Position numbers and translations under genes: made by a program
Assembly (NCBI GenBank): GCA_009705865.1
Contig: WLSJ01000002.1
Location: 1 to 33,577, forward strand
DNA: 33,577 nt
Reading direction: 5' to 3'
From: Actinomycetota bacterium
Lineage (GTDB): Bacteria > Actinomycetota > Acidimicrobiia > Acidimicrobiales > Ilumatobacteraceae
Shown: in pieces, positions 4,796 through 12,576 of the stretch
How the letters are laid out: each line of letters opens with the position of its first letter
Numbering within the stretch: position 1 is the first letter of the stretch
The notes under the pieces: model-generated
Told to the model about the DNA's origin: nothing
Seen by the model: the letters and a program-made list of their open reading frames with translations, nothing else
Databases searched by the model: none

Positions 4796-5723
4796 CCCCT
4801 TCGAGGAACTGTCCGACGCCTTTACCGTCGGTGGGTATCGACTCGGATCTGTCATCGCTCGTCTCACTCCAGGACCGGTGGCTCAAGGAGCTGTATCGCT
4901 GCTAGCACCTGGCGTAGCACTGTCTTTACGTAAACGACGTTTCATGATTGAACGTCATCTTCGTCGTGTTGATCCGACGCTGCAGGGTTTTGCGCTCAGA
5001 AGGGCATCCCAGCAAGCATTTGACAGCTACATGCGTTATTACACCGAGAGTTTTCGATTGCCTTCCATGTCTGCAAAGCATGTGCTGAAATCATTATCGA
5101 ATGATGGTTTTCATTACATTGAAGAAGCGTTGGAACGAGGAAAGGGAGCAATAGTTGCTCTACCTCATCTTGGTGGCTGGGAATGGGCAGGCCGATGGAT
5201 GGCCGAAATGGGCCACAATATGACGGTCATCGTTGAACCTTTAGATCCACCTGAACTTTTCGATTGGTTTACGAAATTGCGCAGTGATCTCGGAATGAAC
5301 GTTGTTCCGCTTGGTCCAGGTGCCGCCCCTGCAGTGCTTGCTGCATTAAAGCGCAACGAAGTCGTGTGCCTATTGTCCGACCGAGATATCCAAGGCAATG
5401 GTGTCGAAGTTGAGTTCTTCGGAGAGAGAACAACTCTTCCCGCAGGTCCAGCGATGTTGGGGATACGTTCTGGTGCAGCTGTAGTGCCAGGGGCCGTGTA
5501 CTTCACCTCAGCAGTAGATGGTCATCATTGCGTCATTCGTCCACCATTAGTTTTTGAAAAAGTGGGTGGCTTGCGAGAATCAGTGGCTGCCGGAACACAA
5601 GCTCTTGCAATTGAACTTGAAGGATTGATTCGTCGAGCACCTGAACAATGGCATCTGTTTCAGCCAAATTGGCCGAGTGATCCAGGATTTGCCGAAATGC
5701 GAGCTCGCGCTAACGCTGAATAA
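4788..5723 (+). CDS. patA: Phosphatidylinositol mannoside acyltransferase-like (LpxL/HtrB superfamily)
   Basis: HLGGWEW (HX4E) acyltransferase motif; follows PIP synthase with overlapping start. Confidence 0.85.
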   Translation: MASPFEELSDAFTVGGYRLGSVIARLTPGPVAQGAVSLLAPGVALSLRKRRFMIERHLRRVDPTLQGFALRRASQQAFDSYMRYYTESFRLPSMSAKHVLKSLSNDGFHYIEEALERGKGAIVALPHLGGWEWAGRWMAEMGHNMTVIVEPLDPPELFDWFTKLRSDLGMNVVPLGPGAAPAVLAALKRNEVVCLLSDRDIQGNGVEVEFFGERTTLPAGPAMLGIRSGAAVVPGAVYFTSAVDGHHCVIRPPLVFEKVGGLRESVAAGTQALAIELEGLIRRAPEQWHLFQPNWPSDPGFAEMRARANAE

Positions 5724-6042
5724 ATTGGGACACTGCGTCAAGTGCCCGGGGAGCTATGGAATACCAGATCCACGTTCCGTCTCGGCGTGACTCGACTAGG
5801 CCAGCTTCGCGCAACACCTTTAGGTGGTGGCTAATCGTAGGTTGACTTCTGTCAAGTGGTTCGGTGAGATCGCACGAACATATGCCGTCACGACCAGCTC
5901 GGCGCACTAAGTCAAAGAGGCGCAGACGAATGGGGTCAGAAAGTGCAGCGAACATTGGTGCAAGATTGGCAGCGGCTGCATCTGCAAGAGGTCCTTTGCC
6001 AAGGGTGATTGGTTTCGCATTCGACACCAGCCCATGATACAT
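5710..6042 (-). CDS. arsR: ArsR/SmtB family metalloregulator
   Basis: Winged-helix motif DRSQPTISHHLKVLREAGLV preceded by metal-site-like ICSCDL; divergent from arsI; ATG at 6042 preferred over TTG 6048. Confidence 0.92.
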   Translation of the reverse strand: MYHGLVSNAKPITLGKGPLADAAAANLAPMFAALSDPIRLRLFDLVRRAGRDGICSCDLTEPLDRSQPTISHHLKVLREAGLVESRRDGTWIWYSIAPRALDAVSQFIQR

Positions 6043-6047
6043 CGACA

Positions 6048-6074
6048 AGTATCAATGTGTTGTATATTGATACT
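6048..6074. promoter_or_regulatory. Candidate ArsR operator: AGTATCAAT-N9-ATTGATACT
   Basis: Perfect 9-bp inverted repeat in the arsR/arsI divergent intergenic region; ATCAA/TTGAT half-sites are typical of ArsR-family operators. Confidence 0.75.
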
Positions 6075-6079
6075 CATCA

Positions 6080-6100
6080 AAGTACCTAACTGGGGTACTT
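6080..6100. repeat. Perfect 7-bp inverted repeat AAGTACC-N7-GGTACTT upstream of arsI RBS
   Basis: Read directly from sequence; lies between the operator-like repeat and GAAGGA RBS. Confidence 0.7.
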
Positions 6101-6116
6101 GACTGAAGGAAACAGT

Positions 6117-6560
6117 ATGTCGCGCGTTCAGCTAGCACTCAATGTCGGAAATCTCAATGATGCCATTGTGTATTACACCAAAATGTTTGGCGTTGGCCCA
6201 GCAAAAGTGCGTGAGGGGTATGCCAACTTCGCTATTGCAGACCCGCCGCTCAAGCTTGTGCTCATAGAGGGACATGGAGAGGCAGGAACTCTTAATCATG
6301 TGGGCGTCGAAGTGGAAGACACTGATCAAGTGGCAGCAAAAATAGTTTCTGCAACTGCTATGGGTCTGCCAATTGAAGTGCAAGAGAGCACGACGTGTTG
6401 TTTTGCCGTGCAAGACAAAGTTTGGGTTACGGGGGGCGAATTGCCATGGGAGTGGTACACGGTGCTGGCCGATGCTCCCGCAGATACATCTTTGAAGCCG
6501 ATGCCCATCATGCTTGGTGTGCCAAGTGGAGCTAGTTGCTGTGGGCCAGAAGGATGCTGA
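6117..6560 (+). CDS. arsI: ArsI/CadI-type glyoxalase-fold protein, candidate C-As lyase
   Basis: MSRVQLALNV...NHVGVEV...TTCCFAVQDKVWV...PWEWYTVLAD; vicinal Cys pair and C-terminal CCGPEGC; RBS GAAGGA. Confidence 0.88.
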   Translation: MSRVQLALNVGNLNDAIVYYTKMFGVGPAKVREGYANFAIADPPLKLVLIEGHGEAGTLNHVGVEVEDTDQVAAKIVSATAMGLPIEVQESTTCCFAVQDKVWVTGGELPWEWYTVLADAPADTSLKPMPIMLGVPSGASCCGPEGC

Positions 6561-7219
6561 ATACTCGCCGCACCCTTGCTGAGTTTTTGGGCACAGCGTT
6601 ATTAGTAATGGCGGTGGTTGGTTCTGGCATCATGGCTCAGAACATGACCACTGATGTTGCGTTGCAACTTCTGGCCAATGCAGTAGCAACTGGTGGAGCA
6701 CTGCTTGGTCTGATCACGATTTTTGGTCCGGTTTCTGGAGCGTCATTTAACCCGATTGTGTCTCTGGTTGGGTTCTTTATCGATCGAGAAACGACTATCT
6801 CAACTCTTGTGACTGACATCATCGCTCAGGTGGGTGGAGCCATCGCTGGTTGCATTATCGCCAACATCATGTTTGCTCACCCGTTTATCGAGACCTCAAC
6901 AAAGATTCGCACTGGCGGCCCAACGTGGTTCTCTGAAGTTGTTGCCACAGTGGGGTTGTTGCTTATTATTTGGGGCGGCAAGCGAGCAGGCGCAAATGTG
7001 GCAGCACTAGTTGCGGCTTGGATCACAGGCGCTTATTGGTTCACTTCGTCAACAAGCATTGCTAACCCAGCAGTTGGTATTGGCCGCATGTTTTCCAACT
7101 CTTTTGCCGGAATAGCTCCTGAGTCAATGCCAATGTTTGCGTTCATGCAATTGATTGGCGGTGTGGTCGGTTTCGCCATTATTGCCATTTTGTGGCCAAG
7201 CAATAAGGCTCAGCAGTGA
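6554..7219 (+). CDS. MIP-family channel (aquaglyceroporin, AqpS-like)
   Basis: Two NPA-type boxes (SGASFNPIVSL, SIANPAVGIGR), six hydrophobic helices; in ars operon; ATG overlaps arsI stop. Confidence 0.88.
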   Translation: MLNTRRTLAEFLGTALLVMAVVGSGIMAQNMTTDVALQLLANAVATGGALLGLITIFGPVSGASFNPIVSLVGFFIDRETTISTLVTDIIAQVGGAIAGCIIANIMFAHPFIETSTKIRTGGPTWFSEVVATVGLLLIIWGGKRAGANVAALVAAWITGAYWFTSSTSIANPAVGIGRMFSNSFAGIAPESMPMFAFMQLIGGVVGFAIIAILWPSNKAQQ

Positions 7220-7602
7220 GCGGTATTTTGTTTCTCTGCATTCATAATGCGGGTCGTTCTCAGATGGCAGCCGGATTCGCACGGGAATTATCCGGAGACA
7301 AAGTATTGATTTTGTCAGGAGGTTCCGAACCTGCAGACAAGATTAATTCTGTTGCTGTTGAGGTAATGAAAGAAATCGGAATTGACATTTCTTCATATGT
7401 GCCTCAGAAATACAACGATGAGCTACTGAACGCAGTTGATGTTGTCGTCACCATGGGATGCGGCGATACGTGTCCCTACATTCCAGGTAAACGTTATGTT
7501 GATTGGCCACTAGATGACCCGAAGGGTCAACCACTCGATGAGGTGCGTCGCATTCGTGACGAAATCAAAAATCGGGTGACGGAATTACTCGCTCAGTTGT
7601 AA
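7216..7602 (+). CDS. arsC: Arsenate reductase, LMW-PTP fold
   Basis: CIHNAGRSQ (CX5R) P-loop and VVTMGCGDTCPYIPGKRYVDWPLDDP; GTGA overlap with MIP stop. Confidence 0.93.
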   Translation: MSGILFLCIHNAGRSQMAAGFARELSGDKVLILSGGSEPADKINSVAVEVMKEIGIDISSYVPQKYNDELLNAVDVVVTMGCGDTCPYIPGKRYVDWPLDDPKGQPLDEVRRIRDEIKNRVTELLAQL

Positions 7603-8507
7603 ATATCAAACAGTTGATTGATGGCCTTTACTTGGCCACCGGTTGTCGAAGACATCACAGCAATCGGAGTGACTCCGGCGTCGGCCCACTCTTCGAAACG
7701 TTGGCGCACATGTGATGCAGAGCCGCTGATTGTGTTGTCATCGAGCCATGTGTCGCTCATAAGCGAAGGAATGATGTCTCTGTTGCCAGCTTCAATAGCA
7801 GCTTCAATCGCATCCATTTCCTCGACGTATCCGGCTGCTCGCCAGTAGTTGCGATAGTTGGGTAGTGAAACATATCCGGTCAGAGTTTTACGGTTGACTG
7901 CGCGCGCGGCCTCAACGTCGTCATCAATCACTGTCGGAATCATGTTGGCTAAGAAAAAATCATCGCGCACTGCGTTTGGAACTTCGGACAACTGTGTAGC
8001 CATGTGACTGAGTGAGGCGTTGGCCCAGATAGCACCCTCTGAGATCTCTGTCGATAATTGCAACATCTTGTTACGCAATGTTGCGAGATAGATCGGAGGA
8101 AGTTGGCCACCGAAGCGTTCATTCGCGCGCATCGCAGCGACGTATGAGGAGGTGTCAGCAAGTGGTTTTCCGGTCTCGACTCCGAGGCGGTCAGTGACTG
8201 GACCGTGGCTGACTCCGAGGCCTAAACGAAAGCGCCCATCGGACATCTCGTTTATGTGGGAAGCCGTATTTGCCATCTCTACGGGGTGGCTGTAATAAAT
8301 CGGTTGAATTGACGTCCAGTAATTGATGCGCGAGGTGACATGCGCCAAAGACACGCATAAACCCATCGTGCCGCCCAGGCTGGGGCACGCAAGGCCTGAG
8401 ATGCCTCTGTTCTCAGCCTCGACCGCGAGGTCAAGAATGGCGCGTCTTTTCGTGGGGGAGGCCACGATGGAAAGAGCAGGACGGAAAGAAGCATCTACCT
8501 TAAGCAT
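7593..8507 (-). CDS. LLM-class flavin (probably F420)-dependent oxidoreductase
   Basis: Luciferase-like TIM barrel motifs (HINEMSDGRFRLGLGVSHGP, GSASHVRQRFEEWADAGV). Confidence 0.88.
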   Translation of the reverse strand: MLKVDASFRPALSIVASPTKRRAILDLAVEAENRGISGLACPSLGGTMGLCVSLAHVTSRINYWTSIQPIYYSHPVEMANTASHINEMSDGRFRLGLGVSHGPVTDRLGVETGKPLADTSSYVAAMRANERFGGQLPPIYLATLRNKMLQLSTEISEGAIWANASLSHMATQLSEVPNAVRDDFFLANMIPTVIDDDVEAARAVNRKTLTGYVSLPNYRNYWRAAGYVEEMDAIEAAIEAGNRDIIPSLMSDTWLDDNTISGSASHVRQRFEEWADAGVTPIAVMSSTTGGQVKAINQLFDIYN

Positions 8508-8525: not shown

Positions 8526-9689
8526 ATGTTGAGAATTGGAATAGTGAGCCCGTACAGCCTCACGGTTCCAGGCGGAGTTCAACAGCAGGTTCTTGGTTTG
8601 GCGCGTAGTTTGCGGGCAAAGGGTCATGAGGTGCGTGTTCTTGGACCATGTGACGGCCCACCCCCCGATGCGTTCGTGACGCCGCTTGGCAACAGTCTTC
8701 CCACTGCCGTAAACGGATCAATTGCGCCGCTAGCTCCTGATGCGTCGGCAGCACTTCGAACTATCCGAGCTCTCAATGATGAAGCATTTGATGTGGTGCA
8801 TGTACACGAGCCTCTTGTGCCAGGACCATCCATGACCGCTTTGCTTGTGAAGATGGCGCCTGTAGTTGCAACGTTTCATTCTGCGGGGGAGTCTGCTGGG
8901 TACAGAACTTTTTCTGCACTTCTAAAAAAAATGGCATCACGGATTGATGTTCGTGTCGCGGTTTCTAAAGATGCTGTTGAACTTGTACAGCGATATTTAG
9001 GCGGAGATTACGAAGTGTTGTTCAATGGCATTGAGCTAGGTGACTATGTTGCATCTTCGTTGCCTCGGGAAAAGGCAATTTTTTTTATTGGCCGACACGA
9101 ACCGAGAAAAGGTTTAAGCGTGTTGCTCGAGGCAATGAAAAAGTTGCCACCAGATGTTCGAGTGTGGATTGCTTCAGATGGGCCAGAGACAGCAGAATTG
9201 CAACAACGTTTCTCTCATGACAAACGAATTGAGTGGCTGGGACGAATCTCGGATACCGAAAAGGTGAGTCGTATGTGTCGCGCTTCTGTTTTTTGTGCGC
9301 CGTCGTTGCATGGCGAATCATTCGGAGTTGTTCTGCTTGAAGCTATGGCTGCAGGTACTCCGGTAGTGGCCAGCAATCTTGATGGCTATCGAAATGTTGC
9401 GACTGACGGAGAGACCGCTCTTCTCGTCGAAACGGGAAATGTCACCAGCCTGGCTACGGCATTAGCAAACGTTTTAAATGACTCAGAACTAGCGGCTCGA
9501 CTCACGACCAACGGCCGCGAACATGCCCAACACTTCTCAATGGACGTATTGGCTGACCGATATGTAGAGATGTATGAGCGTGCGCTTCATATGGAAGCAA
9601 CAAACATCACCACCATCAAGGTGCCCCGTATGCTGAGAAGGTTCGAAGATCGTTTTTTACGGCGGTCACATCTTGGTGGCGAGCGATAG
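8526..9689 (+). CDS. pimA: Phosphatidylinositol mannosyltransferase-like GT4 glycosyltransferase
   Basis: MLRIGIVSPYSLTVPGGVQQQVLGLA...HVHEPLVPGPS...GRHEPRKGL...SLHGESFGVVLLEAMAAGTPVVAS. Confidence 0.9.
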   Translation: MLRIGIVSPYSLTVPGGVQQQVLGLARSLRAKGHEVRVLGPCDGPPPDAFVTPLGNSLPTAVNGSIAPLAPDASAALRTIRALNDEAFDVVHVHEPLVPGPSMTALLVKMAPVVATFHSAGESAGYRTFSALLKKMASRIDVRVAVSKDAVELVQRYLGGDYEVLFNGIELGDYVASSLPREKAIFFIGRHEPRKGLSVLLEAMKKLPPDVRVWIASDGPETAELQQRFSHDKRIEWLGRISDTEKVSRMCRASVFCAPSLHGESFGVVLLEAMAAGTPVVASNLDGYRNVATDGETALLVETGNVTSLATALANVLNDSELAARLTTNGREHAQHFSMDVLADRYVEMYERALHMEATNITTIKVPRMLRRFEDRFLRRSHLGGER

Positions 9690-9709: not shown

Positions 9710-9722
9710 TATGAAAGGACAC

Positions 9723-10541
9723 ATGAATCAGCGTCAATGGATTCCCATCGAAGACCAAACAGAGTTAAACAGCAGGCGAGTGCAGATGATCCCTGTGGCA
9801 GTCACCGTTCTTGGTTCCTTCGTATTTTTGGTTCTGGGTTTGATTGTCGGAATGCCTGTCGTGGGCCTAGTACTAGGCGCGCTGGTTGTTGGCGCGTTCA
9901 TGATGAAAGTTCATCGTTCAGCTGAAGAAGTTGTCTTAAAAATGGTTGGTGGTCTTCCTGCGTCAGAACATGAACATGCACGGTTGTTCAACATCATCGA
10001 CGGACTATGTGTTGTAGGTGGAGACCAACGTCCGGCATTGAGAGTGGTGGGCATCGAATACCCCGTTGCGCTAGCCGTCGCTATGCCGGGACAGCCCGGA
10101 ACAATCGTGGTCTCGGCCGGATTTTTGCGGTCCATGGGTCGCGTCGAATTGGAAGCAGTGATGGCGCATCTGATGTGGCGTCTTCGATCAGGAGATATCG
10201 GAATGACGACGTATTTGATCGCTCTGGGCGCTGCCGTGCAGCGATTCGGTGCTTCGCGGTTAATACGAGGCCTTGTCTCTCGATTCTCTGATGAGCGAAT
10301 TCTTTTGTGGGCAGATGTAGCGGCATGTCAAGCCACTCGGTATCCACCAGCACTTGTTTCTGCTCTCGAGATTGTTGAGCGAGCCAATGAAGTGCCGGTA
10401 GGGCGAATTGGTGCCCAAGCGTTGTGGTTTGCAACTCCTGATAGTCCAGGGGATGGCGCCATTCAGTTGGGTGAGGTGCCTAACATCGGGTTTGCGCGTC
10501 CGTCATTAACGGACCGTATTTCTGTTCTCAAGGAGATCTGA
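9723..10541 (+). CDS. HtpX/M48-like membrane protein with degenerate zinc site (predicted pseudoprotease)
   Basis: N-terminal two-TM hairpin; VELEAVMAHLMWRLRSGDI matches the HtpX HExxH region with E and second H lost; WADVAACQAT...ALVSALEIVE matches the downstream EAD region; RBS AAAGGA before ATG 9723. Confidence 0.7.
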   Translation: MNQRQWIPIEDQTELNSRRVQMIPVAVTVLGSFVFLVLGLIVGMPVVGLVLGALVVGAFMMKVHRSAEEVVLKMVGGLPASEHEHARLFNIIDGLCVVGGDQRPALRVVGIEYPVALAVAMPGQPGTIVVSAGFLRSMGRVELEAVMAHLMWRLRSGDIGMTTYLIALGAAVQRFGASRLIRGLVSRFSDERILLWADVAACQATRYPPALVSALEIVERANEVPVGRIGAQALWFATPDSPGDGAIQLGEVPNIGFARPSLTDRISVLKEI

Positions 10542-10542
10542 C

Positions 10543-11622
10543 ATGTTTCAATCACATCGCACGGTGACACGTATATCTGTCGCAGCCGTTTTGGTCTCAC
10601 TTCTCATTTCGTGTGGAGGTGGATCTCAGTCCTCAGACAGCACCGATGGCGTCGCCCCAATCGATTCTGTTCCAGCGACCGGACCTGTCTATCCATTACT
10701 CGGTACTCCAGCAACGGATGCAGCAGTTGCTGCGCGAGTGGCCTTGGTAGCAAAGATCGATAATCACCCAGCCGCGCGACCACAGACCGGGCTTAATAAG
10801 GCCGACATCGTCTTTGAAGAAAATGTTGAATTTCTTACGCGCTTCGCTGCTGTGTTCCACAGTCAAGGCAGTGACCCGGTTGGTCCATTGCGCAGTGGAC
10901 GCACACAAGACATCAACATTCTCGGATCTTTGAACAAGCCAATGCTGGCTTGGAGTGGCGGAAATGCACGAGTGACAAATGCCATTAACGCAAGCGACTT
11001 GGTAAATGTGGGCTACAGCGCGTCACATGGCAAGGGCGGTTACTACAGAGAAAAGACACGTCAAGCTCCGCATAACTTGTATGCAAAGACGAAGAATTTG
11101 TGGACACTTGCGCCGAAGGGTTCTGGACCTCCTCCACAGCAGTTTCTCTATCGGTCAGATAGTGATGCAAAGCCAACAACTTCAGTTGCAATCGACGGTG
11201 CGAAAATCTCGATGTATAACGTGCGCGTGTATTGGAAATGGGATGCAACAACGAAAACGTTCTTGCGATTCAGTGAAAACATCAAGCGCGTTCTCGAACC
11301 TCACATGACAGACGATGGTCAAGTAAACGCAACCAATGTCGTAGTTCTTTACATGAAATACGTTCGAAGCAAGGCTGACCGTAAAAGTCCCGAAGCTGTC
11401 TCTGTTGGTACCGGCACAGGTTTTGTCTTGACCGATGGTGGCATGATTCCCGTCACATGGACTCGCCCTAGTCGTGAGGTGCCTTTCCAGTTGACTGATG
11501 CAGCAGGTACAGCCGTACGAATGATGCCAGGGCGCACATGGGTGGAACTGGCGTACAAAGAATCTTTAGCTCCTGTCAATCCCGGTATTGACCCATCCAA
11601 AGTGGTCTGGCCAGCGGTCTAA
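10543..11622 (+). CDS. DUF3048-family lipoprotein (YerB-like)
   Basis: Signal peptide and lipobox LLISC; ARVALVAKIDNHPAARPQTGLNKADIVFEE, GPLRSGRTQDI, APHNLYA. Confidence 0.85.
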   Translation: MFQSHRTVTRISVAAVLVSLLISCGGGSQSSDSTDGVAPIDSVPATGPVYPLLGTPATDAAVAARVALVAKIDNHPAARPQTGLNKADIVFEENVEFLTRFAAVFHSQGSDPVGPLRSGRTQDINILGSLNKPMLAWSGGNARVTNAINASDLVNVGYSASHGKGGYYREKTRQAPHNLYAKTKNLWTLAPKGSGPPPQQFLYRSDSDAKPTTSVAIDGAKISMYNVRVYWKWDATTKTFLRFSENIKRVLEPHMTDDGQVNATNVVVLYMKYVRSKADRKSPEAVSVGTGTGFVLTDGGMIPVTWTRPSREVPFQLTDAAGTAVRMMPGRTWVELAYKESLAPVNPGIDPSKVVWPAV

Positions 11623-11637
11623 ACCAGTTAATTCCAT

Positions 11638-11658
11638 GGGGTGACTTCGTGTCGCCTC
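11638..11658 (+). repeat. Imperfect hairpin GGGGTGAC-TTCGT-GTCGCCTC between DUF3048 gene and pdxS
   Basis: 8-bp RNA stem with two G-U pairs read directly. Confidence 0.4.
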
Positions 11659-11673
11659 GGTACCATGGCAGTC

Positions 11674-12576
11674 ATGGTTTCTACTAACGGTTCATCGGCA
11701 ACTGGCACCCAACGCGTCAAGCGTGGTCTTGCAGAGATGTTGAAAGGTGGCGTCATTATGGACGTCGTCAACTCTGATCAAGCAAAGATCGCAGAAGATG
11801 CGGGTGCGTGCGCAGTGATGGCGCTCGAGCGAGTGCCTGCCGATATTCGCCGTGACGGTGGAGTGGCTCGCATGAGCGACCCTGAGATGATCATGGCTAT
11901 TCAAGCAAGCGTGCATATTCCAGTGATGGCGAAAGCACGCATAGGTCATTTCGTTGAAGCACAAATTCTTGAATCACTCGGAGTCGACTTTATTGATGAG
12001 TCAGAAGTGTTGACTCCTGCTGACGAAACCCACCACATCGATAAATTCTCTTTTGACATCCCTTTTGTTTGTGGAGCTACAAATTTGGGTGAAGCATTGC
12101 GTCGCATCTCAGAAGGAGCAGCTCTTATTCGCTCAAAGGGCGAAGCCGGAACTGGCAACATTGTTGAAGCGGTGCGCCATTTGCGTTCAATTCTTGGTGA
12201 CATCCGCAAAATCACACAAGCTGATTCTGCTGAGTTGTTTGAATGGGCAAAGAAACTGCAAGCTCCGTTGCCTCTTGTGCAAGAAATAGCAGAGACTGGC
12301 AAACTGCAAGTTCCGCTCTTCTGTGCTGGTGGTATTGCAACCCCTGCAGACGCAGCGCTTGCGATGCAACTTGGCGCAGAGTCAGTATTTGTTGGATCCG
12401 GAATTTTCAAGAGTGATGATCCGGCACCTCGTGCTAAAGCCATCGTTGAGGCAACTACTCACTTCCGTGATGCAGCAGTACTCGCTCGTGTGAGTCGCGG
12501 CCTTGGTGTTGCCATGACCGGTATCGGTATGGACGAAATCAACGAGACTCAACGATTCGCTCAACGCGGTTGGTAG
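11674..12576 (+). CDS. pdxS: Pyridoxal 5'-phosphate synthase subunit PdxS
   Basis: [23 protein letters not shown]...[17 protein letters not shown]...[11 protein letters not shown]; start 11674 or 11665 plausible. Confidence 0.97.

Follow-up and report, generated by a model that had tools for sequence, protein, structure and literature searches.

The pimA locus of a 33,577-nucleotide stretch of Ilumatobacteraceae DNA (hereafter the window) contains a gene, here called X, whose product resembles the protease HtpX with an altered catalytic site. This raises the question of whether X is decaying, or is retained for a purpose other than proteolysis.

Gene X and its M48 fold

X, which comes from a lake bacterium, is an open reading frame of 272 codons preceded by a ribosome-binding site (Table 1); its integrity, proposed from the sequence alone, is thus borne out. 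The gap between pimA and X measures 33 nt and that between X and the ATG of the DUF3048 gene 1 nt, and the ribosome-binding site of the latter lies within the 3′ end of X, suggesting that these two genes are likely translationally coupled. Besides the PimA-like GT4 glycosyltransferase and the DUF3048 protein, the neighbours of X in the window are a PgsA-like CDP-alcohol phosphatidyltransferase, an acyltransferase and PdxS. Promoter and terminator scans gave no signal stronger than in shuffled sequences. An arsenic-type cassette is present between the acyltransferase gene and pimA (positions 5710–8507), encoding ArsR, a glyoxalase-fold protein with a Cys-rich tail, an aquaporin, a low-molecular-weight (LMW) phosphatase-type ArsC and a luciferase-like oxidoreductase. 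It occupies this position in the window's genus and in g2, and is incomplete in other genomes (e.g., L045 and L051); since parts of it are absent there, it looks inserted into the PIM operon.

Table 1. Features of the pimA–X–DUF3048–pdxS region of the window
Feature	Positions	Strand	Evidence and remarks
PimA-like GT4 glycosyltransferase	8526..9689	+	Conserved partner upstream of the slot
RBS of X, AAAGGA	9714..9719	+	Sequence; 4–9 nt 5′ of the ATG
X, pseudo-HtpX slot protein	9723..10541	+	272 aa + stop (ATG 9723, TGA 10539–10541); ORF, HtpX profile, AlphaFold2 (AF2), 3cqb, dN/dS
Retained TM1–TM2 hairpin	9747..9947	+	Two long N-terminal helices, residues 9–42 and 45–75; AF2 secondary structure, family hydropathy
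Glu144	10152..10154	+	Found in all degenerate and active slot proteins
Former HExxH, here HLMWR	10167..10181	+	Residues 149–153; His149 kept, Glu150 to Leu, second His to Arg153
Former ExxxAD (RRETLAD in active orthologues), here ILLWAD	10299..10316	+	HMM alignment; ligand Glu to Leu194, Asp198 kept
TRYPP motif	10335..10349	+	Slot-family hallmark; still there after loss of catalysis
Remnant of M48 active-site plug HPX4R, here RPSLTDR	10497..10517	+	His lost, Pro and Arg kept
RBS of DUF3048 gene, AAGGAG	10530..10535	+	Sequence; within the 3′ end of X
DUF3048 putative lipoprotein	10543..11622	+	PF11258, E=9e-31; usual partner downstream of the slot
PdxS	11641..12576	+	Anchor of the order-wide slot survey

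The proposal that X is an HtpX/M48-like protein was upheld both by profile searches and by the predicted fold. X matches the NCBIfam HtpX model NF003425 with E=3.3e-23, at a score under the equivalog cut-off of 355 bits, and additional HtpX models with E<1e-5, while its Pfam M48 match (E=0.0021, 18.3 bits) falls slightly under the 20.3 cut-off; Pfam M48 is matched at E<0.01 by 12 of the 21 members of its clade. At the sequence level X also matches the solved HtpX domain 3cqb (E=0.0038), and the resemblance to HtpX, as judged from these searches, is far above chance. The AlphaFold model, built from 21 input sequences, has a pLDDT of 83.2 and a pTM of 0.83, and its best PDB match in Foldseek is again 3cqb (probability 1.00, TM 0.71 by target, E 1.5e-3), followed by ZMPSTE24, Ste24 and BepA. 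X is thus confirmed as a real, conserved protein of the HtpX/M48 fold.

The two N-terminal hydrophobic helices, as well as VELEAVMAHLMWRLRSGDI and WADVAACQATRYPPALVSALEIVE, were found as quoted, and the two helices are all that is left of the four-TM layout: both the model and hydropathy lack a hydrophobic hairpin between HLMWR and ILLWAD. The HExxH motif reads HLMWR, as first noticed, and the plug motif HPX4R, defined for M48 proteases in PMC7950410, reads RPSLTDR. At the third zinc ligand the sequence-only reading had placed a Trp; alignment of RILLWAD with RRETLAD of intact orthologues puts Leu194 there instead, and Trp196 stands two residues on, at a non-ligand position. Its count was nevertheless correct: the catalytic Glu and two of three zinc ligands are gone, and only His149 remains.

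Distribution and conservation of degenerate slot proteins

A search of 201 genomes of the family yielded relatives of X (40–73% identity) in some 15 genomes of its genus, all of them degenerate, and the gene order pimA-X-DUF3048-pdxS is fixed across the neighbourhoods read. HExxH is replaced in these relatives by HIMWR, HLLWR, QLLWR, HVLWR or HLVSR, and in degenerate forms of other genera by ACLAR, VCLAR, HQLAR, YQLAS or WLVSR. Those records with relatives of X that bear a name belong to Ilumatobacteraceae or other actinobacterial MAGs, and several of the names are those of freshwater isolates; three public MAG records titled Bifidobacterium breve (L056, L060 and L061) contain an Ilumatobacteraceae slot locus and look mislabelled.

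An intact HtpX (HELSH ... RRETLAD) fills the same slot in five genomes of the window's genus and in the majority of other genera, which makes X the in-place orthologue of a protease that is active. The order pimA-X-(DUF3048)-pdxS extends throughout the taxonomic order, DUF3048 being absent from some slots that still have X. Other actinobacterial classes have this order too, there with an active HtpX of the TRYPP type (L323, L326, L330–L332, L335, L338, L343, L345 and L346), which indicates that the active state is ancestral. One locus of another class (L327, genome G378) carries a tandem HtpX duplication in the slot 5′ of pdxS, with HExxH in both copies. In a survey of the wider order anchored on PdxS, an HtpX homologue lies beside pimA/pdxS in 74 of the 80 regions read, the other six being truncated or elsewhere than the pimA locus. 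With further loci, 103 genomes of the order were scored, 50 degenerate and 53 active; the choice of regions depended in part on a prior HtpX search, so the sample is not a strictly random one.

Slot proteins form one clade separate from other HtpX in the gene tree (support 85). As X shares both slot and clade with intact HtpX, we rejected the possibility that it is a stray paralogue. The 192 slot proteins comprise 104 with all four catalytic residues (HEHE) and 86 degenerate ones, with hardly any intermediates: the sets HAHE, HCHE and HEHQ occur once each. Two slot proteins, HALAH (L298, G300) and HCLAH (L299, G259), keep both His and the ligand Glu and lack the catalytic Glu, and are possible zinc-binding but inactive intermediates.

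The degenerate proteins (about 62 effective sequences) share invariant G100, E144, D198 and P208, and T205, R206, Y207 and P209 of TRYPP are kept in 89–98% of them; Asp198 is present in 100% of both active and degenerate slot proteins. Between HExxH and ExxxAD, at least one hydrophobic segment is found in 94 of 105 active proteins (two in 83), versus none in 80 of 86 degenerate ones. The plug His is usually gone from the latter and its Arg retained. The second His is replaced by Arg in 68% of degenerate proteins by weight, Arg being the majority residue in 13 of 20 degenerate clades, an excess that is significant against an expectation of one in three and not against one in two. Since it fails the latter comparison and His-to-Arg is a single transition, this convergence is suggestive only.

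The gene tree of X was dropped as a basis for counting losses, since it gives 9 changes only and mixes long degenerate branches; we used trees of neighbouring genes instead (PgsA, acyltransferase, PimA, PdxS, YebC and PdxT, rooted with members outside the order), which represent a single locus and hence not a full species tree. Under irreversible loss, the best of them implies 20 events, and 16 when branches under 90 are collapsed; FastTree versions give at least 17 changes, 10–12 of these between supported branches. By these reconstructions, the zinc site of the slot HtpX disappeared on about 16 to 20 separate occasions among related bacteria. A check of orthologues at the same position had been proposed for the degeneration of X. 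This degeneration proved common to the whole clade, and intact HExxH, which had not been expected, also exists at that position, even within the genus. These intact orthologues do not imply a local mutation, because the clade of the window is degenerate throughout and the change recurs about 16–20 times; a local mutation or an assembly error was rejected, as degeneration is shared by the entire clade and by many MAGs of differing origin.

Pairwise dN/dS (Nei–Gojobori) among pseudoproteases of the genus is 0.03–0.18, compared with 0.01–0.06 for PimA, 0.02–0.07 for DUF3048 and 0.034–0.04 for the active slot HtpX. At about 0.1, pseudoproteases evolve about three times faster than their active counterparts, and some relaxation of constraint is real. 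No stops or frameshifts were found in the orthologues read. Given these dN/dS values X is not decaying, as the sequence-only reading had held, and a decaying pseudogene or neutral decay was rejected on the same values and on the unbroken frames. X is a conserved pseudoprotease, its catalytic residues gone and its gene under purifying selection.

A second HtpX elsewhere in the genome

The genome of the window encodes an intact HtpX outside the slot (C42, HELMH) and another M48 protein (C161). By hand scoring, 72 of the 80 genomes with a degenerate slot encode an HtpX outside it, compared with 49 of the 102 with an active slot (Fisher p = 9e-10, uncorrected). Such a backup occurs in at least one member of all 20 degenerate clades, and in all members of 15; HExxH is present in all 18 copies read. 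On the tree, with 10 independent pairs, the association runs the same way in 3.9 and the opposite way in 0.5 (median p 0.25, not significant). The backups of degenerate genomes differ in type, being either HtpX1 or other HtpX types.

No backup HtpX was detected in eight degenerate-slot genomes, two of which (G058 and G173) are over 90% complete. A 318-aa M48-like protein (VVAHEMAHVTNRHD ... FSLERIADQ), encoded at L310 (G173) and L311 (G167) in degenerate-slot genomes without HtpX1, may be another backup. In G002, an HtpX1 copy with an internal TGA (C38:2444–3313, L173) accompanies an intact slot HtpX, and is possibly a decaying backup, the opposite of the usual pattern.

Within the genus of the window, HtpX1 is found in 10 of 15 pseudoprotease genomes and is missing from four of five active-slot genomes. 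The pseudoprotease clade has as its sister G153, a genome that combines an active slot with HtpX1; the next relatives outwards have an active slot without HtpX1. This matches the order of events expected if the backup came first, G153 being an 82% complete MAG in which contamination is not fully excluded.

Possible roles of the slot protein

We propose, with a probability of about one half, that a separate HtpX maintains proteolysis in these bacteria while the operon copy X keeps a non-proteolytic role in binding clients or partners. That the common ancestor had a pimA operon with an active, four-TM HtpX is shown by the intact orthologues that occupy the slot both inside the order and beyond it. 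The slot protein of many lineages then dropped the catalytic Glu, the second His and the ligand Glu together with the TM3–TM4 hairpin, and retained under purifying selection the two-TM anchor, the M48 core (G100, E144, D198) and TRYPP. Such losses arose where another intact HtpX existed, that copy presumably carrying proteolysis; the association is observed and the causation conjectural. The remainder of the protein would be an M48 domain, anchored in the membrane, that takes hold of clients or partners and leaves them uncut; it might keep membrane proteins of the pgsA/acyltransferase/pimA pathway at the cytosolic face, for instance, or pass them to an active HtpX. Candidate partners are thus the PIM pathway, the other HtpX and general membrane quality control. 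Client binding is suggested by analogy with M48 proteases such as BepA, which show chaperone-like activity (PMC8423444). The repurposed scaffold or regulator suggested in the sequence-only reading would fit these data.

If a second HtpX took over and selection on X then relaxed, this would account for both the faster evolution of X and the backups associated with degenerate slots, but such slow decay is largely refuted by dN/dS of 0.03–0.18, by the frames of the orthologues, by core residues that stay invariant across an order, and by the retention of the gene in the slot in nearly all PdxS-anchored regions, and we consider it very improbable. A different site for catalysis or metal, formed by E144, D198 and R153, could be imagined, the first two being invariant and Arg replacing the second His in most degenerate clades. 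However, E144 and D198 look structural, because they are invariant in active HtpX too, and an Arg at a ligand position argues against metal, so that a non-canonical enzyme is hardly credible.

X might instead regulate active HtpX, tuning proteolysis through mixed complexes with HtpX1 or competition for clients, much as iRhoms do for rhomboids and ADAM17; conserved pseudoproteases are known in such roles (PMC3149277, PMC6451368), an intact HtpX exists elsewhere in genomes of every degenerate clade, and HtpX1 and the pseudoprotease tend to occur together in the window's genus. However, the variety of backups makes a specific pairing unlikely order-wide, HtpX1 is missing from some genomes with X, and X is linked to pimA rather than to htpX1, so that we regard regulation of HtpX as unlikely. 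Equally unlikely is a new function in the PIM/lipid operon apart from HtpX clients, in which X would serve PimA, PgsA or the acyltransferase as a subunit, membrane anchor or regulator, or be a partner of the DUF3048 lipoprotein. The slot persists with catalytic or non-catalytic X and in several classes of the phylum, and the tight spacing, with the DUF3048 ribosome-binding site inside X, is consistent with this. The argument is nonetheless one of adjacency, X remains in some slots from which DUF3048 has gone, and PimA of other actinobacteria functions without an X-like partner. The slot could even be a mere convenient location, functionally unlinked to PimA.

X resembles HtpX (M48B; NF003425 and relatives) in sequence, fold, synteny, the N-terminal TM hairpin, D198 and the TRxP region, and differs in lacking HExxH, the ligand Glu, the plug His and the TM3–TM4 hairpin, and in length (272 versus about 305 aa). 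Neither pseudoenzymes nor non-catalytic M48 homologues are new as kinds: the M48 non-peptidase homologues of MEROPS type are M48 sequences without catalytic residues, and in this respect resemble X. To our knowledge, none of them is on record as a conserved family within an operon that underwent losses in parallel. The M48 protein BepA of E. coli shares the fold and sets a precedent for client binding by an M48 domain alongside proteolysis, its edge-strand serving a chaperone-like role as well, but it is periplasmic, has a TPR domain and keeps its zinc site (PMC8423444, PMC7950410). iRhoms and Derlins are likewise conserved membrane protease homologues without catalysis, acting on protein quality control or on partner proteases (PMC6451368, PMC3149277); unlike X, they are eukaryotic and of an unrelated fold, and the repeated change from active to inactive at one locus distinguishes the X slot from them. 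Our literature search found no paper on an HtpX pseudoprotease and no described pimA-htpX operon; as far as it shows, no description exists of a conserved family of HtpX pseudoproteases that sits in the pimA operon and shows many parallel losses.

Membrane pseudoproteases are known chiefly from eukaryotes (iRhoms and Derlins), and here a bacterial protease has many times turned into a pseudoprotease, always at the same place in an operon. Such repeated loss at the same spot suggests a conserved job independent of protein cutting. More tentatively than the reading preferred above, we suggest that the slot HtpX has from the outset done a job independent of proteolysis in the phosphatidylinositol-mannoside operon of Actinomycetota and that, with a second HtpX covering, selection may have repeatedly (about 16–20 times) stripped the zinc site and TM3–TM4, leaving operon pseudoproteases defined by E144, D198 and TRYPP. 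X may be a hitherto unknown component of the PIM/lipoglycan pathway. The substrates of HtpX are poorly known, and the intact, intermediate and inactive slot forms among close relatives offer a natural experiment with which to separate its proteolytic from its non-proteolytic roles.
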